A DNA stretch of 64,000 bases. Source: Lepisosteus oculatus. Lineage: Eukaryota; Chordata; Actinopteri; Semionotiformes; Lepisosteidae. The DNA is taken from assembly GCF_040954835.1 (NCBI RefSeq), contig NC_090711.1, positions 12,457,001-12,521,000 on the forward strand, read 5' to 3'. The notes beneath the pieces are model-generated. The model did not search any database, was not told where the DNA came from, and saw nothing but the letters and a program-made list of their open reading frames with translations. Below, one piece after another: positions 33,813 through 64,000 of the stretch. Each line of letters starts with the position of its first letter. Position 1 is the stretch's first letter. A program made the translations under genes and the position numbers.

Positions 33813-36065
33813 AAGTGTAGCTTCAGTTTTCCTTCAATAATATTCTCCTTGCTTTTCAAAAAACACTTTAAATTATAATGCTTTAAAACGGCTTTTACGG
33901 AAGCTTTAATGTCAGCCTATTTTCATTAACATGGACAAGGTTCTTTTCTACACAGAAAATAAGATAATCTTTCATCCTGTCTTGTAATTGACACTGAGTG
34001 TTCAGTTACAAAGTGTAAAGAATTTCTGAACCATTTAAAGCCAAACTTGTTATTAGATATGAGATTTCACAGCTTGATTTGATTAAAAAAGACCTATTAT
34101 ATGGGTTGAATCAGTGATGGACTCATTTTCTTTGATTATTATATGAGAGCTAAGGACAGGATGATCATAATGCTGATAAAATCTTCTACATGTTCTTCTG
34201 CTCCAGCCAAATTAATAATTATTTTCAGCTATCTTTACAATAGCCCTGGTAACACATTATCATTATCATTATTAACGTTCCTATTTTAAAAGACATAAAT
34301 GCAATTTTATATGTTTCCAATGTTCTATTTTTTAACCAAGTTGTTGAGAATGCAGAATCAAAACAGTTTCCCGGATATGGGTATTATTTTGTACAAGATT
34401 TGTTTAGGCATTCAAATGGTGAATGAATAGCTTATGTGTACAAATTCAAATATTACAACCTGAAGTAAAGCTATAAACTAATTTCTCAGCATCAGAAACG
34501 CTGAGAATCCAATATTAGCAATGATTCTCACGTAATTAAGTCTAGTAATGGGTGATGTAAATTGGATGGGAGTCAACCACCTCTCCCACACACACAAAGA
34601 TCTTATGGCTTTACTTCAGGCTGAACTTGGGTATGCGGTTTTCTTGAATTACAAGTCACATCCTGTCGTGTTTATAACTGTAGCTTATGCAGAACGCGAA
34701 GACTAAACCTCTATCAGCGAAGCATCTTGCTCAATTGTTTAAACAGAGACTCGAGGGACATTTTACAAAACAGTTGGGTTTTTTTTGTGTGTAGGATTGT
34801 TGTTTTTATCTGGTATTTGTAAATTATTTTATTTTTATTTTTAAAAAAAAGATTTTCCCAAGCAATCTGAGCTGTATATAGTGTGGAAGACACGATATAT
34901 TAGAGAGTGTTAAAACTGAACACCGAGGAAACTGTATGCTTTAAGATTCTCGATTCACACGGTAGTATAGTAAATTCTTGCAACGCTAGTTATCGCGCTT
35001 TTCATATTTAACAAGGATCCTGTATAGACTATAGACATCACTGTATACGGCACATCTCAGAATAATAGGAAGAACCAAAAGTTAAATTTTAGGATGCCGA
35101 AAACTCTAATTATACATTTTCCTAGTTGAGGAATCAAACATTCACAGAAAAAGGCAGCGAATTCGACTGAAGAAGTACTAAGCCAGTCCCTTGCGGAGGA
35201 ACAAGACTCTTCGCCGCAGGTAGGCGGTGCTGAAGTCCGGTGGCGTACTGGGTAGAGTCCTTAACACGGCGACTGCGTGCACATAGGTTCAAATCCCATC
35301 CGTTCAGCAAGATGTCCAAACACGATAGGCTTGAACCCGTGCCTGTGGTGTATTTACACGCTTGCGAGAATACATGTGGACCAAGTGCTGCGTTTCGATT
35401 GATCCAGAAACGTTAGTTCCACCGGTCCACTTACAGGCTTCCAGTTTTGCATTTCAGTACGTTCTGTACGTGTACATATCGGCAGCTGCAAACAAGAAAA
35501 TCATTAAATAACTCTTACTCAACTCAAAGAACACGGTTTGAGTACAATTCTGCACTATCACGAACCCCTTGTTTAAATACTTTCCTGTGTTATTATTTCT
35601 TTACATTACCATATTATGTTATTTTATGCTTTGTATGCATTTCTAGTCGATGTTTGCTATTGGCAATTAAAAAAACAACTGTTTTAACAGTATTTTTACG
35701 ATATCGCTAATAAAGCGGTGCCAGCAATGTAAATGTTAGAGGTATGCTTTGTAGGAAAACTGCGTTAAGGCGCCTATGTCGCTGTAATATCGAATACAAT
35801 TGTCTCTTGTGGCACCGTGAAAATAGCGCCTCCCCCCGGAGAGTCGGGTCAATTATCAAACACCACTGAAATTGTTCCTAAGTGCAGTAGTCAGTAGTCC
35901 TGGGATTTTACACAACCTTTTATTGTATCAGTCTGGCGGGTTAGCTTCGTTTGCTGCTGGTGTAAGGGACTGTAGTGAAGAGGTGTGTCTTGCGCGGCTG
36001 TGAAGTGGGTGTGTTATCAGTTCCAGTCTGGGGGATAACCGACACTGGCCCGAGTACTGGGAACC
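33813..36065. other. intergenic, upstream of the NCR3LG1-like gene
   Basis: It contains a tRNA-like patch at 35226-35300 (separate entry). No protein-coding exon was recognised. The last few hundred bases should hold the promoter and 5' untranslated region of the gene that starts at 36066. I could not identify specific sites. Confidence 0.4.
35226..35300 (+). repeat. tRNA-like sequence, probably a SINE head or tRNA pseudogene
   Basis: An A-box-like tggcgtactgg is followed about 40 bases later by a perfect B box ggttcaaatcc inside a pairable T arm (atagg/cccat). The acceptor arms do not pair and no sensible anticodon loop can be drawn, so I do not call it a working tRNA gene. Confidence 0.35.
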
Positions 36066-36132
36066 ATGAGAGCGCCCCGGCTGGAATTAGGACCAGTTCT
36101 TCATTGCCTGTGCGTGTGCCTGATCTGTGAAG
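36066..36132 (+). CDS. exon 1, signal peptide
   Basis: MRAPRLELGPVLHCLCVCLI and two more residues, then a split glycine codon. It has a short basic start and a hydrophobic core, as expected for secretion. The donor is g/gtactg. It is the only ATG-led hydrophobic exon upstream that continues in frame into the V exon. Confidence 0.75.
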
Positions 36133-39100
36133 GTACTGTAGGATACTCATTTTAGAAATGTTAACGCTCTTTTGTGCTCTTGGGTTGTTTGCAGTACTTC
36201 GCACCTGTAGTGTAAGGTACAGTACGAAGGTCAATTCCTGATACAGGTTATTCTCTTGGCAAACGTATGCATTGCTTTTAAAGGGATAGACTACCACAGG
36301 ACGACTACTGTATTTCAAGTAAACTACTTTTAACTTTACAATATAGCTGCATGAGACAAAATCGTCTGTTTTACGTTAGGGCATTGTGATCTTTTTTAAG
36401 TTTGGAAAAACGTTTCTTTTAGAAAAGTATTTTAAAACTAGGGTATCCTGTATACACAAATTGATAACAGACTTGGGTTGTTTGAGCTGCTGAAAGATAG
36501 CGTCAACAGTCCTAAAATACGCTTGGGGGGGGAATTTAAGTTTAGAATTGTTAATTGAATCTAGGTGCCTACAGGTGTAGTACATTTCCAGTTTATAGCA
36601 TCTCGCCATCCGCGAGGATTTAGCTTGGCACAAATCTAAATATTTAATTAAAATTACTATTAGCCCACAGCTAAGGATACACCACAATTGAAATACAATT
36701 TGTTTTATCTCTTTTTTTTACTTTTAAAGGTGGAATTAACTGAAGTGTCCCGAATTTCTAGTATTACAGCTATGCGCAAATCTAAGCAAATGTTATTGTT
36801 CTTGGTCATTTTCGTGTATAACAACCCTGATAAAAATGGGTGCATTTTTATTTTTTTAACGGGAGAGATCCTGGTATTCAGATCGGATGTACTGTAATCA
36901 CTGTTATTTTATCGTAAATATAATTTCCAAATTAAAAAAAAAACACGTTAAAGTTTTTTGTAAAGCGAAAGTCCCAAAATATTCCATAGTCCCAGTATTC
37001 ATCTGAAAATAAAAGCAAAACGTCCAACATACATAGTATTTAGAAGAGGACATTGATTTCAGACGTTAATTTAAAAAGGTTCTGTCCATCGGCCTTATGG
37101 ACATTTTAATCAAATAATTAACAACACGAAAACTAATTTCACATTAGCTGCTGGCAGAAATGTTTAGAGTTCAGGCGGGTAGCTGCGAACAAGTGAAGGT
37201 TTATTTCATGTTGAAAAGAGGAGAAAGGAAACACAACATTTCGGATGTGGAATTCTTTTCGGGTGTGAGAAAGCGAGGGTACTGTATGCCAGCAGCCATA
37301 TAACCCTACAACTGTCAACTGGCAACCCACTGAAACTAAGCAGCTGTGAGCCTGTTCGGTACTGTACCTAGATGGGAGACCTCCTGGGAAAAACTAAGGT
37401 TGCTGCTGGAAGAGGTGTGAGTGGGGCCAGCAGGGGGTGCTCACCATGCAGTCCATGTGGGTCCTAATGCCCCAGTATAGTGATACACTATGCTGTAAAC
37501 AGGGGCCATCCTTGGGATGAGATGTAAAACCAAAGTCCTGGCTCTCTGTGGTCATTAAAAATCCTAGGGCGTCTCTTGAAAAGAGTAGGGGTATAGCCAA
37601 ATTTCCCCTTGGCCCTTACCAATCATGGCTTCTTAATAATCCCCATCTCTGAACTGGCTTCATCACTCTGTTCTTCTCCCCACTGAGAGCTGGTGTGTGG
37701 TGAGAGTACATCATCAAGGTGGGGGCTACACACTGGTGGTGGTGGAGGGGATCCCCATTACCTGTAAAGTGCTTTGAGTGGAGTGTCCAGTAAAGTGCTA
37801 TATGAGTGTAAGCAATTATTATTATTATATAGCACAGGAGAGGGGAGCAGGGGGGAGCCAGAGTGGCCACTCAGGTGGTGTGAAGTCGAGAGTATGTTTA
37901 GAGTGCAAAGTCAGAGACCCCCTGCCTACACACATTAAAGTGGGTGTCCCTAATCAGACAGGGTATTCTTAGATTTCCATTGTACCATTGTGGTACTCTC
38001 CTTAGACCAATTTGCCAAAAGTAACCCAACCAGGACCGCAAAGCTCTATAACACAACCTGAAGTTCCCTCAGGCAGCTGACTTGGCTCTGGCATCTGGTG
38101 AGAATGGGGTGAGAATTTCTCTGCTGGCCTGAGAACAGCCGGGAGTCCCTCAAAAGGAGCTGGAGACTTTTACTGGGGAAGGGGTAGGCTGGTCTGCTCT
38201 GCTCAGCTAGTGACCACAGCGACCCTCACCAGTTAGAAAATGGGATGGGGGGAAAAACTGTTTTATGTTGGCTGCTTTTTACTCTCAACTTCTGTCTTTA
38301 GCAATGATTATGATGCAGCACGTTGCAATTAAATGCTGCATATTATGTCATGTTTGAGGTGCGCTGGAGGTGAAGACAGACACCCTGCCAGTATCCTGTC
38401 TCGCGGGCCAGGAGGTGCTTTTAAACTGCTCGTTTTCCAAGCCTCCCCGTGTGCAGCTAAGCGCCATCGCCGTGGAGTGGAAGGTCATGGCGGGAGACGG
38501 GAGAAGCCGGGCGGTGTACTCTTTCGATGGGAGCAGAGAAGCTCACGGCCGCCCCGGCTCGGGCGTCGCTCTGCACAGACTGGTAGAGGGTGACGCCTCG
38601 TTGCGTTTGCCAAATGTGACACTCGCGGACGGGGGGCCGTACACCTGTACCGTCATGATCACGCCTGAGGTCGGTTATGGAAACATTCAGCTGGATGTAT
38701 CAGGTAAAGACTTAAAAAAAAACGTTGATTTTTAATTGTTAGAAGAATCATTTCCGCCTCATTCTGAATTGCATTCGCCTTGTGCAAAAGGTCACATTAA
38801 AAAAAAAAACTAAATAAAACGTAAACCCAGGTTTTGCAAACTCCTGGGTCTTCTTGGTTTGTTTTGTTTTGGTGCTTTTTAGTCAATGGGTCCACGCACC
38901 TGATCTCTCTAAAACCTGTACCGAGGCGTGTGTGTCTGTACATTAAGATCACACTAGGTCTCTACATACCCAGCAGCTAAACCGTTGGGAAAAGTTGATA
39001 AATTAAGGCAATAATTAGTTCCATTAGGAAGCCTAATGTTCCATTAGGACACTGATTCTCAATCTGAAGCTGTGTATGTTTGCGAAGATCAAGGGATATG

Positions 39101-42100
39101 TGCTTTGCATGAGTACATTACTGTTTTAGCCTTTTATTTTTATTAGTTTTTTCTACTTTAATATTTAATGCTTCCTCAATTGGAACTCTGAGTATCTTGT
39201 GATGGACTGGCTTCCTGTCCAGGGTGTGTCCCGCCTTGCACCAGAGGATTGCTGGCTTAAGAATCTTGTGGCTTCCTTGTGATCCCACAAGAATGAAGAG
39301 GACAGAAGATGGATATCTGTAAACTGGAAGTTTTACAAGCTTCTTTGTGCAATTTGTTTTTATCGTGGTTTGAAATTTACTCATCAATACGAATTATTTC
39401 TAGCCCCCAAATATAACAAAAAACTTTGCAGTTCCCCTTTAAAAAGACTGGAGCAGGGGATCCCAACTCCTGTACAGGCAACATTCCTGCAGGTTTTCTA
39501 GGCCTCTTTATATGAGCAGCACGTTAAGATCTGGTAAAATCTCTTATGCTGCTTTAAATCAGCAAATTAAACTGCTAGGAGTTGCTCTGGAGTGAATATG
39601 TGTTGGTCTGCCTCAGAGTGTTTGTTTCCCTTGGGTTCAGCTCTTCATGGAGAGGCAGATCAGTTTGGGTTGTAGGCCAGCTAGCTAAAAAATTAAATCT
39701 TAAGCTTGTTTGTATCTAGTTTACTTCAAAGTACAGTACCTGCTATGAGCTACATCAAGTGCATGAAAATAAATGATAAGGATTCATCTATGAAGAGGAA
39801 AAATATTTGTTTTGAAATCAAAAAAGTATATAGTTTGCACTTTTACCAAGATGTAAATGAGCAAGAGTGACTTTTAAGCAACACTGTTTTTGCTAGTTAC
39901 TGTTTGCTATCACACTCTTTTTGTACAGACTTGTTTTGTCTTCCTTTCGCATTGTAATGGTTTTCAGGTTCTCTGCATTGATAGTCATGCATGCTAGTAT
40001 TGTTTATTTTCATTTACTGAGATCACTGGCTTTTAAACAGTTTTTACATTTGGAAGCACACTTATCTGTACTTTCCTTTGGATTTAGTAGGATAAATCAC
40101 TACAGTATATGGGTTTCATCACTTGTCCAAACTAATACAATCTGGCTGGCTTTTGGACTGGCTTCCCAAAAAGGTTACTGTATGAGTAGTCAATGCTGTC
40201 TTTTGGATTTTTATGTTTTATTGAAAATGAAAGCCTTTAGTGTAATCGCAAAACATGCTGTTTTTTTTTCTTCTTTTTAAAAAAAAATGTTTTGCAACAA
40301 ACAGTGCGGCCTTCTGTAACAGTGCTTCCTGAACTGGCCACCATCACCGTGGGTGAAGAGAAGACAATCCTGTGTGAAATCACTAGATTTTACCCCAAGC
40401 TAATGGAAGTGACTTGGCTCGTTAAGAAGGACCTTGCTCCGGAGCTCCCTGCCGTTTCACGAGACGTCTGCACTGGAATTCCTGTTCCGAACGGAGACCA
40501 GACCTATAACGTCCACAGCCGTATTACAGTGCTGGCGAGTATGGAAGAAAATGGGGCCATGTATGTCTGTCAAATCAAACACAAGTCCTATGGCACACCC
40601 CACAGAAGAAACGCCACACTTAAAGTTGTAGGTGAGAGATTCGTCTTCTCCAGGTGCAGTCAAACCTTAGAATACTTTGCATTTCTCTTTGCTGTTGTGA
40701 GTTACTATCTAAGAAGGAGTCTTGGACTCAGTACCTGGAGGGTATTGTCTCTTCTGTTTAATTGTTCCAACCTAAGCAGTCAATTAAACAATTGATTCCT
40801 TTGTAAGTCAGAAATATATACTGTAGGATTATTAAGGTCTTTTACACTTGATTATAGGACATTCATTCAATTATTGGTAAATCACCTCAGAGCCTGTGTC
40901 ACAGAATTAACAGTTACGATTATTCTGCTAATTCCCTAACTAGATAAATTATGCAACCGAGAGCACAGCTGGAACAGAAACCAGAAGACACTGGGCTCTT
41001 CAAGAACTGAGTCTGAGAGTCAATGGGTACTTTAAAGGGTCATAATTTATGATGGACCAGAATGATTAAATCAATAAATGGATTAATCAGTGAACTAACA
41101 GAGGAGCACAGAGTACTCTTAGTTCTATTATTAAAGAAATGGGAATGTGATTAAGAGCTGAAGAAAGCTTTGCTCCAGTGCCAAAAGGTTGTAAATAGCT
41201 TGGTTTAAATAGCTGTATGAATCCTTGCTTGAAGGGCTTTGTTTTCAACAAATGTGGTCTGCCTAGCCCCAAGGCTGCCTTCTGATAGCACAGCAGTGAT
41301 AGCTGGCACCTTCTCCACCAGTGTGCTTCTCATCCTGGCAGTACTGGGAGCAGTGTTTATATACTTCAGGCATTTCCAGAGAGGTAAGCCTTATTTTGTT
41401 CCATATAAGCAATCTGCAGCATTATTTAATATGGCCCAGGGTTGTCTACACTTTCCTCTAAAGCAGAGAGGCCTAACAGGTTCTGGAGCACTGCTGTGTC
41501 CATAAGTAGGTTTTATTTCAGCTTTTTACTGGCTTAATTGGCCTGAGCTAATATTTTCTGCCAATTACTTAAATACTGTGACCTAGAAAACCTACAGACA
41601 CTTCAGACTTCCTGGACAAAGATCAGGGTCCCATACTTTAAGGTATGCTCTGTGATAGCCATTTAATGCCGTACCCTAGGAGCCCCACATTGGTGCCACT
41701 AAGTAAGTATTAATATGAGGCAGTTCCAGGTGGCACTGCCACACAGGTTACTGAGGATACCCTAACTTAACCAAGCCCAGCCACCCCTAGAGGCTATTCT
41801 CTTATAAGAGGTCTTTTTATCACATTCTTCTCACCCAATGTCTACCCAGAGAGCTCTACATCAGGAGATACCATTTTTAAATTTTCACCTTTAGTATTAC
41901 AGTATGTAGTCCAAAATAAATCAAAATGCAGTTGCCAAGGTTGTATTAGAAGGGAAACGGGCTATTTTCAAATGCATGAAAGTGCGGATAGCTTCAGTAT
42001 TCATTCAGGGAACCTGCCAGTATGACCTTATGGTTTTTTGTGGTCTGTGCTGATCTTCAAAGGGATAAGACAAGCTGATTTATAAATTAATTACTAAATT

Positions 42101-45100
42101 TACTGCCAATATTTTTTTCTTCTTTGTAGTTCCTCCAGATGTCTCTGAAATTATCCACCCTGCCATTATATATGCCAACGAGACAGCAAAATTAAAATGC
42201 AACATCACTGCGTTCAGATCACATGCTTTCAAAGTGCAGTGGCTGAGGGTGAAGCAGCATCAGTACCATGACCAGTCAGAGGGTCTGGGCGGCTCTCCAG
42301 AAGCTATTCCACTTAACAGGTGTGATGACGTGAGCGATAAAGCTGAGAACCAGTTTGACAAACAGCACAGGCTCTGTGTCTCCACTATCCCTGTTCAGCT
42401 GGCTGTCGAGGACGATAACACTGAGTTTTGTTGCATTGTGCGATGTGGCCGAGCAGAAATCTGCAGGACAGCCGTCCTCAAAGTTACAGGTGAGGACACG
42501 GAAGGTGACCCACATAATAAAACTCAAAGATAAGATAGCTAAACCATTACAACACTGCACAGACCTGGAGAAGTTCACCTCTGTGAGACAGGCTGAGGAA
42601 TCCAGTCACTAGTTCTGGGCGAAGGCAAGCAGACAGGTGAGGTGGAGAATGCACCAGACAGACAGAGAGAGCTGGGAATAGGAGCAGACTGGCAGAACAG
42701 GGGCCGTGCCGCACAGCCAGGCAGATCAGAAAGGTTGCTAATAACGCTGTCAAAAGCTGTATAGCAACCAGGAAAAAGTTGGGAATCCAGCTCTTGGTCA
42801 GGTCCTGGCTCAGACTCAGAACTAGATGGTTCTGACAGTTTCAGCTGGAGTGCAGGACAAGTACTGTGGCAGACAGGCTGGTTTGTAAGAGGAGCACAAA
42901 GTATCCAGCGCTGATGCAGAAATTACCTGTTAAATGGCAGCAGGTGGCATGAACAGCCAACCCAATCGCGTTCTCACGGCAACAGGAGGCATTTGATAGT
43001 TACTGTGAAGACCAGGGTGTAACATAAATTTGATTTCAAACTTAAATACTCTTTATATTTATTATAATAATTAATAATAAGTTCTTTAATTTATAATCCC
43101 AAAATGGTCAAAAAGTACATTATAAACAGGAGGGGACCCACTTTAGCCTCCACTGAGCCCCACCTGATGTACAGCTGCCATTGTGCATCAGCAGCCCCAC
43201 TACATGGCAGATGAGGTGGAGAAGGGAGAAATTGCTTCACCAGTTGAATTAAAGGGGAACTGCAAAGCTATTTTTAGCAGCATTGATGAGCGCATTTCAA
43301 ACCAAGATGGAAGAAAAATGTACACAGTATCTTGTAAAACCTCCAATTGACTGTACATCACAAAATAGATGAAATTTCCAGGTATGCGCAACGCCATGTT
43401 CTGCGATTCAGAATGAGGCAACAAACCTTCTGGTGACGTGATGTGGCCCTATGAGATTGGAAACAAGCAGGCTAGTGAATACACCTTAATCCAATCCAAT
43501 AGAAATATTGCTTTTGACTTTGAGACAGTTTTGCTGACAAATACTACCTACTTGTTAACTCTGCATGCAGATCATGTTGGAAACTTTATGCAGTGAAATA
43601 TCTGCTGCACGACCTGTACTTATTTACTCATATATCACATTACATAAGGCATTGTAGTGACTAGTGAGCAGGAAGGGCTGCATCACGCAGCAATTCATGG
43701 GAACATTAATACAAGTTTGCAACTTACAGTATTTTCACAAAGTTCACATTTTTGTGCTTAATTTGAAATTTGTCATTTTTTTTTCTATTACATCAATTAA
43801 TTGATTTTGTTTCCGAGATTAAATAATCGGTCTGAGAAATTGGGAGTGCAGTTCCCCTTTAAGGGGAAGCTTTTGGTGTGTTAAATTGTGCAAGCCCAGA
43901 GTGGAGATTAGTCAGGACACTGGGTTAACATCCTTTTGTGTCATGGGATTTTAAATGATCAAGTGGTCAGGACTTTGGATTAATGTCTCATCCGCAGGTC
44001 ACTACATTAAAACATTACTTCTGAAACTTCTAAGCCAATAAGGAAGAGTGTTGCCTACTTGTGCACAAACACCCCTTACAGCTACAACCTAGCTTCCCAC
44101 TAATGTTACCTATCCCAGTACTGACCAGGTACCGAATTCCTCCAATATTTGATGAGTTTATGCTAGAAGGTGTTAATACTGCTTAAAAGCTTTGACAGAA
44201 TAAGTTTGTTGTTTCAGCCAAACACTAGTTTTATATCGGTAACATGTACAACATGTATAGGTCTGCTTGCCAAATGTACTTTGTGTTATTCAGAACTATA
44301 ATAACAGGTGATAGAAATTTAGAAAAACAAAGTGGGGGGTGTTCACAAGCATCAAGGAAAGAGGACGTAAGAATATTCACAGTGGGAAAAAAAAAGCAAA
44401 GAGAGGGTTGAAAAGAAAGAAAAACAAATTTCCTGCTTTCACTTCAGATTTGTGAATGTGAGATAATGCCCTGTTATTTACAGTCTTCCTTGTGAGTCCA
44501 AATTAATTTTGTTTTCATTTTCTTAGTGCGTCCATCCTTTTTTCAAATATCCAGCCTCCCCCCGATCCCCAAACTGCAGAAGACGCTCGTCCTGTGTTGC
44601 AGGATGGAGAAGTTCTACCCTGGGAGTGTTACCCTGGAGTGGTTCCGAGACGGGCAGGCAGTGAAGGATGTCACCCAGTTTGGACCCTTTGAAGACTCTG
44701 GGCAGCTGTACAGTGTTTGGAGCCAAAGTCAGCTCACTGTAACCAAGGAAGACGAGGGCGCTGTCTACACCTGCTGTGTGCGTCACGACAGCTTCCCTGA
44801 GCCTGGCTTCAGAGAAATCTCCTACGAGCTCAACCTGCAGGGTAGGATCTTGCTTGAGGTGCCATCTTGCCCTATACTCACCAGAGATTTAATGTGTGGA
44901 CAAGCTTTGAGACTTGGCCACAGAACTTTTTTCACAGCAATTAACTTTAAACCCCCCAGTTTTCCAAAGAAGGTCTGTTTAAACTGTTTGTTTTGCTGTT
45001 TTTACCCTTCAAGTAAGCACAGAAGTTGTTCCTTTCTTCTCTTCTCACTTTTTGCACATTAAAACAATGATTGTCACACCTAAGATGGTACCGGCCTTCC

Positions 45101-45476
45101 ACAAAAAGTATCAAAATAACACATTTTCCTCATAACAGTGTTTTCTGTCTTGTCAGGCATGGCCCCGAAAGTCATGTGGATCAAGTGTGACCCTCCTCAG
45201 CCTGGGACAGGACAGGAGTGTACATTGAACTGCTCAGTGAGCAACTTCTGCCCCGATAGCATCTCTGTAAAATGGCAAAAGAATGACCAGCCAATACATG
45301 CTGGCGTTTCCAACTCTCCTCCTGTTCTCAACGCCAGCGGGCTCTATTCGTTGTGGAGCTTCCTGAGATTCACACCGGAAGAGGATGACGATGGCAGTGT
45401 GTTTAAGTGTGTCGTAGAGCACAGTACTCTTAGTGAACCAGAGGAGCGAATACATGTATTAAACGTATCTAAATAA
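36066..45476 (+). CDS. B7-H6 / NCR3LG1-like Ig-superfamily protein with three post-membrane Ig domains
   Basis: Seven exons join with GT/AG sites, every intron in phase 1: 36066-36132, 38359-38703, 40305-40631, 41267-41383, 42130-42489, 44527-44841, 45157-45476. The product has 616 residues: signal peptide (1-22), V domain (23-137), C1 (138-246), membrane exon (247-285), then C1-like domains 286-405, 406-510 and 511-616. The V domain shares with human B7-H6, the ligand of the NK receptor NKp30, the run RPG...RL..GDASLRLP and the ..VTP....G.IQL.V end. The first C1 shares FYP, DV.TG and an NV.S stretch. The helix at about 257-280 is followed by RHFQR, which predicts the rest in the cytosol. No second membrane helix or GPI signal follows. 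Neighbours are tp53rk and slc13a3. The family call is firm; exact orthology is not. Confidence 0.85.
37175..37262 (+). repeat. worn relative of one arm of the 52.8-kb inverted repeat
   Basis: The order gggtagctgcg, aacaagtgaaggtttatttc, then aacacaacatttcgg parallels the left arm at 52780-52889. Only one orientation is present here. It lies in intron 1 of the NCR3LG1-like gene. Confidence 0.6.
37320..37838 (+). repeat. 5S-rRNA-derived SINE, copy 2
   Basis: The head (aactaagcagctgtgagcct, then ctagatgggagacctcctgg) corresponds to the 3' half of 5S rRNA. It is followed by a body and tail shared with 30877-31420 and ends in ttattattattat. It lies in intron 1 of the NCR3LG1-like gene, sense orientation. 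Confidence 0.82.
38359..38703 (+). CDS. exon 2, V-type Ig domain
   Basis: The acceptor is catgtttgag/gt, chosen because an in-frame stop lies just upstream and this site restores a glycine. The domain has the B-strand Cys in LLNCSFS, the core Trp in VEWKV, and the F-strand Cys in DGGPYTCTV. The segment HRLVEGDASLRLPNVTL is the closest match to human B7-H6. Sequons are NCS and NVT. The exon is clearly GC-richer than its surroundings. Confidence 0.85.
39190..39318 (+). repeat. fragment of fish SINE-like repeat
   Basis: The wording tgatggactggcttcctgtc, then cagggtgtgtcccgccttgc matches the core of the 22024-22335 family. The head and tail are missing. Confidence 0.55.
39320..39445 (-). repeat. 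end fragment of the TTAA-flanked inverted-repeat element
   Basis: It ends tgcagttcccctttaa and, in reverse, follows about 110 bases of the left end of the element at 43253-43858 (shared words ggtttgaaat and tcatcaat). The other end is absent. Confidence 0.65.
39449..39690. mobile_element. possible worn hAT-type MITE
   Basis: It starts gagcaggggatcccaactcc, like the left end of the 19193 element, and carries a caggttttctaggc block. I could not find a clear right end. It lies in intron 2 of the NCR3LG1-like gene. Confidence 0.35.
40305..40631 (+). CDS. exon 3, first C1-type Ig domain
   Basis: It opens with VRPSVTVLPE. Typical C1 marks are LCEITRFYPKLMEVTW and YVCQIKHKSYGTP. The segment RDVCTGIPVPNGDQTYNVHS parallels the same region of human B7-H6. 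One sequon, NAT, lies near the end. The donor is a/ggtgag type, phase 1. Confidence 0.87.
41267..41383 (+). CDS. exon 4, transmembrane segment
   Basis: 39 residues with a hydrophobic core (VIAGTFSTSVLLILAVLGAV, then FIYF) followed by RHFQR. The acceptor tctgcctag and donor gtaagc keep phase 1 on both sides, so the exon can be left out without shifting frame. Confidence 0.8.
41465..41640. mobile_element. possible worn hAT-type MITE
   Basis: An inner aggttctggagcactgctgt and an outer cctggacaaagatcagggtc resemble the two ends of fish hAT MITEs, with aaacctacagacactt near the right end. The ends are too worn to prove a duplication. Confidence 0.35.
42130..42489 (+). CDS. exon 5, Ig domain after the membrane segment
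   Basis: It has the strong acceptor ttctttgtag and opens VPPDVSEIIHPAI. It has LKCNITAF, a core Trp in VQWLRV, and a cysteine-rich F strand, EFCCIVRCGRAEIC. Sequons are NET and NIT. It is longer and more diverged than the other C1 units (120 residues), with extra cysteines in NRCDD and RLCVS. Confidence 0.78.
42490..43100. other. intron 5 segment, nothing named
   Basis: A moderately GC-rich piece rich in caggcag-type words (42580-43020) that looks like the remains of a dispersed element. I cannot name it. AT-rich sequence follows. Confidence 0.3.
43110..44140 (-). repeat. 5S-derived SINE, copy 3, split by another element
   Basis: The left piece (43110-43248: gagccccacctgatgtacag type) and the right piece (43863-44140: gtcaggacactgggttaaca, then catgggattttaaatgatca) follow successive parts of the 30877-31420 copy in the same orientation. 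The 606-bp element at 43253-43858 sits between them. The head end near 44130 keeps cagtactgaccaggtac. Confidence 0.62.
43253..43858. mobile_element. 606-bp TTAA-flanked inverted-repeat element (MITE-like)
   Basis: Ends are AGGGGAACTGCA on the left and TGCAGTTCCCCT on the right: perfect 12-bp terminal inverted repeats. TTAA lies at both borders (43249-43252 and 43859-43862). There is no coding potential. The TTAA duplication is the hallmark of piggyBac-type elements, though the end sequence is not one I recognise. A fragment of the same family lies at 39320-39445. Confidence 0.75.
44527..44841 (+). CDS. exon 6, C1-type Ig domain after the membrane segment
   Basis: It opens VRPSFFQIS. It has LCCRMEKFYPGSVTLEWF, then GQLYSVWSQSQLTV and DEGAVYTCCVRHDSFPEP, which are textbook C1 B, C, E and F strands. 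It has no sequon. The acceptor is attttcttag. Confidence 0.85.
45157..45476 (+). CDS. exon 7, last C1-type Ig domain and stop
   Basis: It has CTLNCSVSNFCPDSISVKW, then GLYSLWSFLRF and DGSVFKCVVEHSTLSEPEE, another full C1 unit. It ends HVLNVSK then TAA, with no membrane anchor. Sequons are NCS, NAS and NVS. An AATAAA overlaps the stop and another is at 45500-45505. Confidence 0.85.
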
Positions 45477-45505: not shown

Positions 45506-47346
45506 AGTGTTTTTTTTTGCTTTTTAAAAATATAGAAACGTCTAGCTTGGCTTGAAAGAATGCCTAAACATACAGTTAAAACAGAACCCTGGAGTGATTT
45601 GCGGGCACTCTCTGTGCCTCCCCACTGGGATTTTCATTTAGAACCACTGCTGTAAAAGACAAGAGTTTGCAGCTGTGGGACAGTACGGTATGTATCATTA
45701 GCGTGGAATAATTTTTCAGATTTGTCTATCAGGCCATGGCAATAACAACCAGTAATAGACAGAAAAATTAATTTCACCTGAACATACGTAGTACATGATA
45801 TTTAAGCCCTGGTGATGCTAAGGCGCTTAGTCTTAGCGTGTTTTTCACCTGGTTTGTTACTTGTGCTTGCTCCGGCTTTCGAACTTTGCTTCCTCCTTTT
45901 TTCTCTGTTTTTTGGGGGGATTCTGCTCAAAACTTTGATTTTTAAGCTTCTGCGGATTAGAATCATGTCTGCTTACTTCTGCCTTCGACTGTGTTTCTCT
46001 GCTTCTTCGCCCGCGTCTCCAGCTGTTTGTCTGCCTGCCATTGGATCCATCTTAAAGTACAAGTACAGCATGTTACAGAAGGCTCTGGGTTCAAATCCTA
46101 GACAGGTGCCTACTGCGCTATCTTTGAGCAAGGTCCTTCATTTTCTGCAGTAAAAGACCCAGGTGTATAATAGGAACGGCTGTAAGGCATTCTGGATAAA
46201 AGTATCTTCCAAATAAAATTGTGAAACGTGATGCCACACATTACAATCCTGTGACTAAAGATGGGTGAATGGGAGCTGGTAAGAGACCCTTCTCCTCGTA
46301 GAAAACCATTTAATACAGGAGGAGCAAGACTGAAACTGGTCCGAGGCTGAGTGCTGGAACACTTCGACCAACATCTGCTGCAAAGCTCTCTCTTGGAGGA
46401 AAGAGATCAGGAAAGTCCGGAACAAACCTGTTGCTCAAACCAGACCCTTTGGAATTGGTCAAGAAAGTGTTGAGTGGGATTCTGAAATCATTGAGCTGCA
46501 AATACATTTTAAACAGGCATGTTAACCTGTATGGCCTCTTTGGGGAGGATTGTCAAAATGTAAGAAAGTCATTGGTGCTGATCTTTCTTCCCTTTGCCAC
46601 TTCTGGCAGTCACAACTCTTGTGCAAAACACATTCCATCCTAAAGGACCCTTTACAACCTTGGTCTAATGAATTACTCCCTGCCGAACGCAGATATGGAT
46701 TTCCCCACTCTAAAAAAAAAATGTGTTGACGTTCTTATGAGTACATGCAGTCTTAACCCTGCTCAACAGGTCAGTCTCTTGTGCATTACTGTATATGTGT
46801 ACTGCTTATTTGTGTGTTTTTCTTTATATTTCCCGATACTGCAAAACAAATTGCTCCATGGAGATCGTAAAGACTCTCTACTGTCTACTCTACAAGGTGA
46901 AGAGTGCAGTTGGACTGACAAAGAGAATTTGGGTAATTATTTATACTTAATTAAAAAAAGCGCCCGCCTGATCTTGAAATTCAGACATATTTACGTATTA
47001 ACATTAGTTGGCCTATAATTGTATACATGGACAATAGGAGTGGACACTGATCAGCTTAGTAGAAGTACATACAGTACTATGACCTTCTACATGTGCAGGA
47101 AACACACAAAGTGGAGGTCACTTTGAGCTAATGGGGTCCCCTCAGGTCTGTACTACGATTATCCAAGAGACTCTCCCTTTTTAATGGGCACAAAATTTCC
47201 TTACTCCTCAGCTGATGGTTTTGTGATGTAATTGTTTGGAGAGGCCAGGCAACAATTTTAAAACTGCCTTGTGTAACATTACCACAAAATTGTCTTATTT
47301 AATTAAATCTTAATTAAATGTCTTATTTTATCATGTAAAGATAAGA
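45506..47346. other. intergenic, one worn SINE
   Basis: A tRNA-SINE remnant at about 46060-46215 has a separate entry. Nothing else is recognised in this stretch. Confidence 0.4.
46060..46215 (+). repeat. worn tRNA-derived SINE
   Basis: It has a B-box-like gggttcaaatcctag, then tttgagcaaggtccttc, then aaggcattctggataaaagt. This is the usual order of a common fish tRNA SINE (head, gagcaaggtacttaacc block, ctggataagagcgtc tail). Confidence 0.6.
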
Positions 47347-62700: not shown

Positions 62701-64000
62701 ACCAACAAGTGGGACACAATTGTGAAGTGGAACGAAATCTATTGGATTTTTGAAACTTTTTTAACTAATAAAAAAATGAAAAGTGGGGCGTGCAAAATTA
62801 TTCGGCCCCCTTGCGTTAATACTTTGTAGAGCCACCTTTTGCTGCGATTACAGCTGCAAGTCGCTTGGGGTATGTCTCTATCAGTTTTGCACATCGAGAG
62901 ACTGAAATTCTTGCCCATTCTTCCTTGCAAAACAGCTCGAGCTCAGTGAGGTTGGATGGAGAGCGTTTGTGAACAGCAGTTTTCAGCTCTTTCCACAGAT
63001 TCTCGATTGGATTCAGGTCTGGACTTTGACTTGGCCATTCAAACACCTGGATACGTTTATTTGTGAACCATTCCTTTGTAGATTTTGCTGTATGTTTGGG
63101 ATCATTGTCTTGTTGGAAGATAAATCTCCGTCCCAGTTTCAGGTCTTTTGCAGACTCCAACAGGTTTTCATCCAGAATGGTCCTGTATTTGGCTGCATCC
63201 ATCTTCCCCTCAATTTTAACCATCTTCCCTGTCCCTGCTGAAGAAAAGCAGGCCCAAACCATGATGCTGCCACCACCATGTTTGACAGTGGGGATGGTGT
63301 GTTGAGGGTGATGAGCTGTGTTGCTTTTACGCCAAACATATCGTTTTGCATTGTGGGCAAAAAGTTCGATTTTGGTTTCATCTGACCAGAGCACCTTCTT
63401 CCACATGTTTGGGGTGTCTCCCAGGTGGCTTGTGGCAAACTTTAGACGAGACTTTTTATGGATATCTTTGAGAAATGGCTTTCTTCTTGCCACTCTTCCA
63501 TAAAGGCCAGATTTGTGCAGTGTAAGACTGATTGTTGTCCTATGGACAGACTCTCCCACCTCAGCTGTAGTTCTCTGCAGTTCATCCAGAGTGATCATGG
63601 GCCTCTTGGCTGCATCTCTGATCAGTCTTCTCCTTGTCTGAGCTGAAAGTTTAGAGGGACGGCCAGGTCTTGGTAGATTTGCAGTGGTCTGATACTCCTT
63701 CCATTTCAAGATGATCGCTTGCACAGTGCTCCTTGGGATGTTTGAAGCTTGGGAAATCTTTTTGTATCCAAATCCGGCTTTATACTTCTCCACAACAGTA
63801 TTACGGACCTGCCTGGTGTGTTCCTTGGTCTTCATGATGCTCTCTGCGCTTTCAACAGAACCTTGAGACTATCACAGAGCAGGTGCATTTATACAGAGAC
63901 TTGATTACACACAGGTGGATTCTATTTATCACCATCAGTCATTTAGGACAACATTGGATCATTCAGAGATCCTCGCTGAACTTCTGGAGTGAGTTTGCTG
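53730..64000 (+). CDS. slc13a3: NaDC3, sodium/dicarboxylate cotransporter (first two coding exons; runs off window)
   Basis: Sodium-coupled carrier for succinate, alpha-ketoglutarate and N-acetylaspartate at the plasma membrane (SLC13/DASS family). Exon 1 (53730-53840, 37 codons) reads [20 protein letters not shown], then [15 protein letters not shown]. Exon 2 (61082-61347) reads [20 protein letters not shown], then [20 protein letters not shown] and [19 protein letters not shown]. Both align without gaps to human NaDC3. The exon 1 donor is agg/gtaggt in phase 0; the exon 2 donor is ctg/gtgaga in phase 2. The human exon 3 sequence (starting around LILGMMVTTSF) is not found before the window end, so the protein is truncated by the window and not in the genome. 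Intron 1 is 7.2 kb. The start ATG is the first in frame. Confidence 0.93.
55085..56340 (+). mobile_element. L2-type LINE fragment, split by a solo LTR
   Basis: The translated order [45 protein letters not shown] and [10 protein letters not shown] follows the C-terminal end of L2-clade reverse transcriptase proteins (LNSDKTE, LNRLQ.VQNSAAR, RTR...FSVAAPKLWN, FKSRLKTHLF). The right part resumes after the LTR at 56099. There are several stops and frame breaks, so it is long dead. It lies in slc13a3 intron 1. Confidence 0.75.
55765..56093 (+). mobile_element. solo LTR (Gypsy-like)
   Basis: A 329-bp element with TG...CA ends (tgtcacgccctg ... catccgtaaca) and a perfect 5-base target duplication catgg on each side (55760-55764, 56094-56098). 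No internal region is present, so only one LTR is left. The TGTCACG/CGTAACA ends are common in fish Gypsy elements. It is younger than the L2 copy it interrupts. Confidence 0.8.
56380..56770 (-). mobile_element. possible worn LTR
   Basis: On the minus strand a TATA-like ctatttaaaccct follows attaatccctcattgcccca and ctggtcctaattaatccc. This is the layout of many fish LTR promoters. The ends and a duplication could not be fixed. Confidence 0.3.
57129..57358. mobile_element. possible hAT-type MITE in slc13a3 intron 1
   Basis: The left end, cagcggttcccaatcctggt then cttggtgatcc, is typical of fish hAT MITEs. The right end is unclear (about gaaagtgctg). The flanks gtctatag and ttctagag are only loosely alike. 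Confidence 0.4.
58110..58381 (-). mobile_element. worn LTR, same family as 60535-61005
   Basis: It shares agccccaaataaagtgag, then gcctggcttttaaggggg and ggagcgtccttaaggagga with the LTR at 60535-61005, in the same orientation. A gaaaca microsatellite lies inside it. Fossil. Confidence 0.6.
59041..59228 (-). repeat. fish SINE-like repeat, internally shortened
   Basis: In reverse it has a worn head with cagggttcaattcc, the actccatgcacg block and a tail ending ggatggaag. It belongs to the 22024-22335 family. Confidence 0.62.
59229..60534. other. slc13a3 intron 1, nothing recognised
   Basis: AT-rich sequence with short meaningless frames. No repeat that I can name. Confidence 0.4.
60535..61005 (-). 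mobile_element. solo LTR, Gypsy-like
   Basis: On the minus strand it starts tgtcacgttcg and ends cccgttaca: TG...CA ends, 471 bp. It is flanked by atgtc and atatc, a probable 5-base duplication. A TATA-like ccttaaaagcc and a following ggctctgctctgg give it the usual promoter layout. No internal region is present. It ends only about 75 bases before slc13a3 exon 2. A worn relative lies at 58110-58381. Confidence 0.68.
61348..62594 (+). other. slc13a3 intron 2, first part
   Basis: AT-rich intron sequence with no exon that aligns to the next part of NaDC3 and no nameable repeat before the Tc1 element. Confidence 0.45.
62597..64000 (-). mobile_element. Tc1-like DNA transposon (runs off window)
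   Basis: The left terminal repeat begins cagtgccttgcgaaagtatt directly after a TA at 62595-62596, the expected target. The transposase lies inside on the minus strand. The other terminal repeat must lie beyond position 64000. The terminal sequence belongs to a Tc1 group that is widespread in fish and, as I recall, shared with lampreys by horizontal transfer. It lies antisense in slc13a3 intron 2. Confidence 0.9.
62816..63835 (-). CDS. Tc1 transposase, full-length open frame
   Basis: 339 residues, the usual length for Tc1 transposases, with no stop or frame break. It has an N-terminal paired-type helix-turn-helix ([20 protein letters not shown]), a GRPSKL AT-hook-like motif (residues 58-63), a second DNA-binding region ([16 protein letters not shown]), and a catalytic DDE set in [19 protein letters not shown] and [11 protein letters not shown]. 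The spacing is consistent with DD34E. The glycine-rich [10 protein letters not shown] box is present. It cuts and pastes its own element at TA sites. The open frame suggests a recent insertion; whether it is active cannot be read from sequence. Confidence 0.93.
   Translation of the reverse strand: MKTKEHTRQVRNTVVEKYKAGFGYKKISQASNIPRSTVQAIILKWKEYQTTANLPRPGRPSKLSAQTRRRLIRDAAKRPMITLDELQRTTAEVGESVHRTTISLTLHKSGLYGRVARRKPFLKDIHKKSRLKFATSHLGDTPNMWKKVLWSDETKIELFAHNAKRYVWRKSNTAHHPQHTIPTVKHGGGSIMVWACFSSAGTGKMVKIEGKMDAAKYRTILDENLLESAKDLKLGRRFIFQQDNDPKHTAKSTKEWFTNKRIQVFEWPSQSPDLNPIENLWKELKTAVHKRSPSNLTELELFCKEEWARISVSRCAKLIETYPKRLAAVIAAKGGSTKY

Follow-up and report, generated by a model that had tools for sequence, protein, structure and literature searches.

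The window analysed here, a stretch of 64,000 nucleotides of the Lepisosteus oculatus genome (contig NC_090711.1, positions 12,457,001 to 12,521,000), contains a B7-H6-like gene of seven exons on the + strand (36066-45476), which join into an open frame of 616 residues in the order signal peptide, V domain, C1 domain, membrane helix, three immunoglobulin (Ig) domains and stop codon. The best explanation of this layout, held with slightly better than even confidence, is a single gene in which splicing would switch the product between a membrane form and a secreted form. More tentatively, and with somewhat less than even confidence, the layout suggests a B7-family ligand gene that holds its own antibody-like constant region, such that splicing would turn a membrane ligand of natural killer (NK) cells into a secreted, disulphide-linked fusion resembling an antibody Fc (fragment crystallizable) chain, with the membrane exon located upstream of the secreted exons.

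The first-pass annotation of this DNA had proposed the seven exons and described them as joining cleanly. All six introns have GT-AG borders and interrupt the frame in phase 1, and the frame remains open throughout, which bears out the seven-exon reading (Table 1). Splice sites were scored with a crude home-made matrix and ranked against all GTs or AGs in the window. The donors of exons 2-6 fall in the 96.6-99.9th percentile (top 3.4%) and that of exon 1 in the 90.5th; the acceptors of exons 5-7 fall in the 97.8-99.2th percentile (top 2.2%). The acceptors of exons 2-4 do not stand out (49.5-57.1th percentile), so the joining is clean in frame and phase but not in acceptor strength throughout; for exon 4, a higher-scoring acceptor in the same phase is available at 41294. 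Exon 1 reaches a hydropathy of 2.86 over 10 residues, and CpG observed/expected is 0.63-0.99 across 35001-36500. Another AATAAA overlaps the stop codon of exon 7, at 45472.

The proposed switch depends on exon 4. Because exon 4 is phase 1 at both ends and each preceding exon ends in phase 1, exon 3 can be joined to exon 5 in frame, and skipping the 117-nt helix exon connects LKVV to VPPDVSE. Exon 5 opens with V-P-P after the phase-1 codon, and exons 3 and 6 open with V-R-P (VRPSV after exon 2, VRPSF after exon 5). When 264 kb were scanned for open phase 1/1 segments with hydropathy of at least 2.2, a donor score of at least 8 and any AG as acceptor (thresholds chosen after exon 4 was known), two segments were found on the + strand, one of them exon 4, and none on the - strand; the other + strand segment lies in frame within an open reading frame (ORF) resembling OCSTAMP by eye. 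Being so rare, the helix exon does not look like a chance occurrence. Of the two options that the first-pass annotation had offered, a topology switched by splicing is the one supported, since the helix exon can be skipped in frame.

Two main transcripts are predicted from this arrangement of exons. If exon 4 is kept and the transcript ends within intron 4, the product would be a membrane ligand consisting of V, C1 and helix with a tail of 40 residues, like ordinary B7-H6. If exon 4 is skipped and exon 3 is joined to exons 5-7, the product would be a secreted chain of five domains (V, C1, Ig, C1, C1), glycosylated, rich in disulphides and probably paired covalently by way of its extra cysteines. 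This form would display the same ligand face as the membrane form, and might serve as a decoy, a competitor or a soluble activator of the counter-receptor, which by analogy may be NKp30-like.

The resemblance of the V and first C1 domains to human B7-H6 (NCR3LG1), claimed from the letters alone, is upheld by database searches: the closest match, among PDB chains only, is human NCR3LG1/B7-H6 (3pv6, 4zso; E 1.4e-33), and the next family is CD276 (1.6e-28). Another PDB search ranked NCR3LG1 (3.6e-34) above CD276 or B7-H3 (1.1e-29) and tapasin-related protein (4.6e-20); the V-C1 pair is matched by both of these, with scores under that of NCR3LG1. B7-H6, the ligand of NKp30, has in common with the gar gene a signal peptide, V, C1 and one helix, a layout predicted here from sequence. 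The human chain terminates in a non-Ig tail, whereas the gar gene has three Ig exons beyond the helix; the seven-exon frame has no non-Ig tail, but read-through of exon 4 would supply one.

Beyond the helix, three C1 domains had been annotated. Exons 6 and 7 are indeed recognized as C1-set by Pfam, but exon 5 is not: it falls below the Pfam cut-offs (Ig_3 E 0.042, I-set 0.16, no C1-set call), and its best match in the PDB has an E of only 0.25. Exon 5 can be aligned with the three other C1-like exons and keeps the core Cys-Trp-Cys. AlphaFold2, working from the window's own four C1-like exons, models it as an Ig-like all-beta fold with a mean predicted local distance difference test (pLDDT) score of 80, and models exon 7 as a complete Ig-like domain (mean pLDDT 92). 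On these grounds, "divergent Ig domain" is a safer label for exon 5 than "C1". The best PDB matches of exons 6 and 7 are Ig heavy-chain constant domains, with shark UrIg2 within the first five, a likeness that is general among C1 domains. Exons 5-7 together match "UrIg2 V-C1-C2-C3" (9dmx) with an E of 8.9e-22, ranked third behind IgA1 and an IgG hybrid. Exons 5-7 contain 5 N-glycosylation sequons, compared with a mean of 1.41 in shuffled sequences (P 0.009). Their 331 residues include 16 cysteines (4.8%, versus 2.7% in V and C1), the canonical Ig pairs among them; the extra cysteines could link chains.

These sequons and cysteines bear directly on the other option of the first-pass annotation, in which the seven exons are translated together and the three domains beyond the helix reside in the cytosol. 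In agreement with that option, the frame is open across all seven exons, RHFQR after the helix suits the positive-inside rule, and no second helix precedes exon 5. The claim of a single membrane helix stands at the thresholds used: two scans of 41384-45156, one for phase-1 acceptors with a score of at least 3 and the other for phase 1/1 segments with a donor score of at least 8, found no hydrophobic exon that might return the tail to the lumen. However, in the reducing cytosol the sequons would be useless and the canonical pairs unformed; both features fit a lumenal or extracellular location. There is no linker to separate the helix from the first strand. Known cytosolic Ig domains, of the titin type, are I-set domains that do not rely on disulphides, and no B7 relative of the cytosolic kind appears in titles among the literature matches listed; to our knowledge, cytosolic Ig domains would be unprecedented for a B7 relative. 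Since, in addition, the frame survives omission of the helix exon, a main product with Ig domains in the cytosol is the least economical reading and is considered improbable.

Exon skipping and read-through both have precedents in immune checkpoint genes, which lends support to the proposed switch. According to the available excerpt of PMC11082354, the transmembrane exon is absent from a CD86 variant (CD86-deltaTM) and, as exon 3, from soluble CTLA4, and an enlarged transmembrane exon introduces an early stop in CD155 delta. All three likewise change form by way of the transmembrane exon; unlike the proposed gar form, they are not mentioned in that excerpt as having gained Ig domains.

Table 1. 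Exons of the B7-H6-like gene and associated features, in coordinates of the window
Feature	Coordinates	Strand	Description
Exon 1	36066-36132	+	Start codon and 22-residue signal peptide; ends in phase 1
Exon 2	38359-38703	+	V-set Ig domain; Pfam V-set E 1.5e-9
Exon 3	40305-40631	+	C1-set Ig domain; Pfam C1-set E 1.9e-12
Exon 4	41267-41383	+	Membrane helix, then RHFQR; 117 nt, phase 1/1
Possible exon 4 read-through	41384-41505	+	40-residue tail and stop; hypothetical
Exon 5	42130-42489	+	Divergent Ig domain; 7 Cys, 2 sequons
Exon 6	44527-44841	+	C1-set, Pfam E 2e-15; CC pairs at both core positions, 0 sequons
Exon 7	45157-45476	+	C1-set, Pfam E 4.8e-21; stop codon directly at domain end; 3 sequons
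AATAAA	45500-45505	+	Begins 24 nt past the final base of the stop
Weak candidate 3′ membrane exon	46770-46870	+	GT/T-rich stretch with phase-1 acceptor, hydrophobic segment and stop; possibly chance

Several observations weigh against the proposed switch. The scan for phase-1 acceptors listed exon 4 by way of 41294 only, as its acceptor at 41267 is itself below the cut-off; the unremarkable rank of this acceptor is uninformative, those of exons 2 and 3 being equally weak. Downstream of the read-through there is an AATAAA at 41915, which is at chance level (0.75 expected per 746 bp). The V and C1 domains are also enriched in sequons (3 versus 0.87 expected, P 0.044); such an excess thus characterises extracellular Ig domains generally and not one isoform, which makes the test indirect. 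Ig domains may retain sequons by descent, and exon 6 has none. Finally, a weak signal-exon candidate is present in intron 3 (41062-41146; hydropathy 1.87, donor score 3.9), and the low CpG content upstream of exon 5 (observed/expected 0.0-0.15 over 41001-42000) is common to other intron stretches, so it counts for little against a hidden promoter there.

The last two points concern an alternative that seems fairly unlikely, namely that exons 1-4 with a short tail make up a B7-H6-like gene and exons 5-7 form the 3′ end of another gene, for a secreted Ig protein, whose first exon lies upstream and escaped recognition; the finding would then be ordinary. Besides the intron 3 candidate and the possibility that a promoter without CpG is hidden upstream of exon 5, such a division would accord with the greater likeness of exons 6 and 7 to shark UrIg2 and to the constant domains of Ig heavy chains than to B7, and with the difference in acceptor strength between exons 2-4 and exons 5-7. 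The first-pass annotation had itself noted that a hidden signal exon between 41384 and 42129 would make exons 5-7 a separate gene. A crude scan, which did recover exon 1, identified no signal-exon candidate in this interval, which is the whole of intron 4. The open frame of exon 5 contains no ATG, and together with the lack of an intron 4 candidate this indicates that exon 5 must be spliced to something farther upstream. The same scan listed exon 1, 36158-36221, 41062-41146, 44244-44331 and 44892-45012 between 35000 and 45500, and 30 candidates on the whole + strand of the window. To the extent that it counts, the low CpG content also speaks against a separate promoter. Within 100 kb on each side, a C1 profile built from exons 3, 5, 6 and 7 matched no other ORF of at least 40 codons, tblastn gave nothing better than E 0.057, and no second V exon of this kind was found by tblastn. 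As no other such V or C1 exon was found in this range, there is little to suggest that exons 5-7 strayed from an Ig cluster nearby; the C1 profile detected no such cluster within 100 kb.

Two further alternatives would retain a single gene. In one, the product is mainly the secreted protein with exon 4 skipped, the helix exon surviving only as a relic in decay. The acceptor of exon 4 (57th percentile) is as expected of a relic, but so weak an acceptor is shared by exons 2 and 3, and in exon 4 the frame is still open, the helix strong and the donor in the 99.8th percentile, all of which leave the relic with a small chance of being correct. In the other, the long form is anchored by a 3′ exon near 46770 spliced from exon 6, in the manner of teleost IgM, in which the membrane exon is joined to CH3. 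The candidate has a phase-1 acceptor with a score of 8.9, a hydropathy of 2.68 and a stop shortly afterwards, and at thresholds chosen after it was known nothing else qualifies in the 528 kb of both strands. When the thresholds are relaxed, the number of qualifying cases in these 528 kb rises to 16 (0.061 per 2 kb), and at the most permissive setting to 174 (0.659 per 2 kb). The candidate consists of a GT/T-rich stretch with hardly any linker ahead of the helix, and is located past the AATAAA that follows exon 7. Anchoring by this exon is very improbable.

The genome searched comprises 1.2 Gb in 813 contigs, with the B7-H6-like gene on contig C16. Exons 2, 3, 5 and 7 were used as single queries (exon 6 was left out), and only the best candidates were scored, with E up to 1 and the gene's own exons counted. 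Matches numbered 56 of 81 candidates for exon 2, 34 of 93 for exon 3 and 79 of 112 for exon 7; for exon 5 the single match among two candidates was exon 5 itself. The best non-self matches of exon 3 (E 6.9e-10) and exon 2 (E 1.2e-6) lie together on contig C29, in a locus that is tapasin-like by eye, and that of exon 7 (E 1.8e-11) is on contig C14. Some of these distant relatives, from the ORFs of eight loci and of L024, we take by eye to be tapasin, MHC (major histocompatibility complex) class II, SIRP and IgM. No close second copy was found among the best candidates for exons 2, 3, 5 and 7, exon 6 not being searched. As exons 2, 3 and 7 have distant relatives only and exon 5 matches only itself, the gene is probably single-copy. 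Contig C18 carries, between about 7.4 and 17.6 Mb, 14 weak C1 matches similar to each other (28% identity, 130-residue open frame), which may belong to an expanded family of C1 domains. Two V-like ORFs (L004 and L005, by eye) with the motif GxYRCxLWxPxGxQIQ, perhaps of another Ig family, lie about 71 kb and 64 kb before the window begins.

Neighbours of the gene in the window are TP53RK, MC3R and a sugar transporter (GLUT10 by eye). Among these three, NCBIfam models for Bud32 and sugar porters were matched, and no NCBIfam model matched the receptor. The three neighbours appear to differ from the genes that flank human NCR3LG1 on 11p15, and for this reason the gene is labelled B7-H6-like rather than an orthologue. 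Two ORFs that look like OCSTAMP/DC-STAMP by eye (L014 and L015) are at 89541 and 98656 on the scale of the window; with TP53RK, they suggest synteny in common with human 20q13. A Tc1-type transposase ORF with helix-turn-helix and DDE domains, open for 350 codons, occupies 62819-63868 on the - strand. Scans of the window for tRNA genes and Rfam families gave no matches.

If the proposed switch is real, an NK-ligand or costimulatory gene would have evolved, by exon order alone, the kind of fusion between a ligand and an antibody stem that drug makers build by hand. It would also connect B7 ligands with Ig-like genes that do not rearrange, with a bearing on the origin of secreted immunoglobulins. 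No B7 relative with tandem Ig exons beyond the helix was present in titles or abstract openings of the open-licence literature, among the matches listed.

The MHC-linked nonrearranging antibody of sharks, UrIg, likewise combines a germline V with several C1 domains downstream of it. In PMC10751288 it is described as a VJ-C1 gene in the MHC class III region of elasmobranchs. The gar gene differs from UrIg in that its V-C1 pair is B7-H6-like and a helix exon lies in the middle of the gene. Its V exon ends in GNIQLDVS without an FGxG motif (by eye), and the C1 domain after it is B7-H6-like, which is not the UrIg-type arrangement of V-J with tandem C1. No MHC-like gene was recognized by eye in 264 kb or by Pfam in 10 ORFs, no systematic MHC search having been made; ORFs that look like MHC class II by eye are on contig C14, and the B7-H6-like gene is on C16.

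The heavy chain of IgM likewise has one phase-1 exon per domain, and exons 6 and 7 match the mu constant domains. No counterpart of the rearranging V, D and J segments of the Ig heavy chain is apparent in the gar gene, recombination signals not having been searched for; its V domain is encoded whole by a single exon that has a donor of its own. In Ig heavy-chain genes the secreted end comes first and the membrane exons are 3′. The choice between membrane and secreted forms proposed for the gar gene would be alike in kind, but with the order of the exons reversed.

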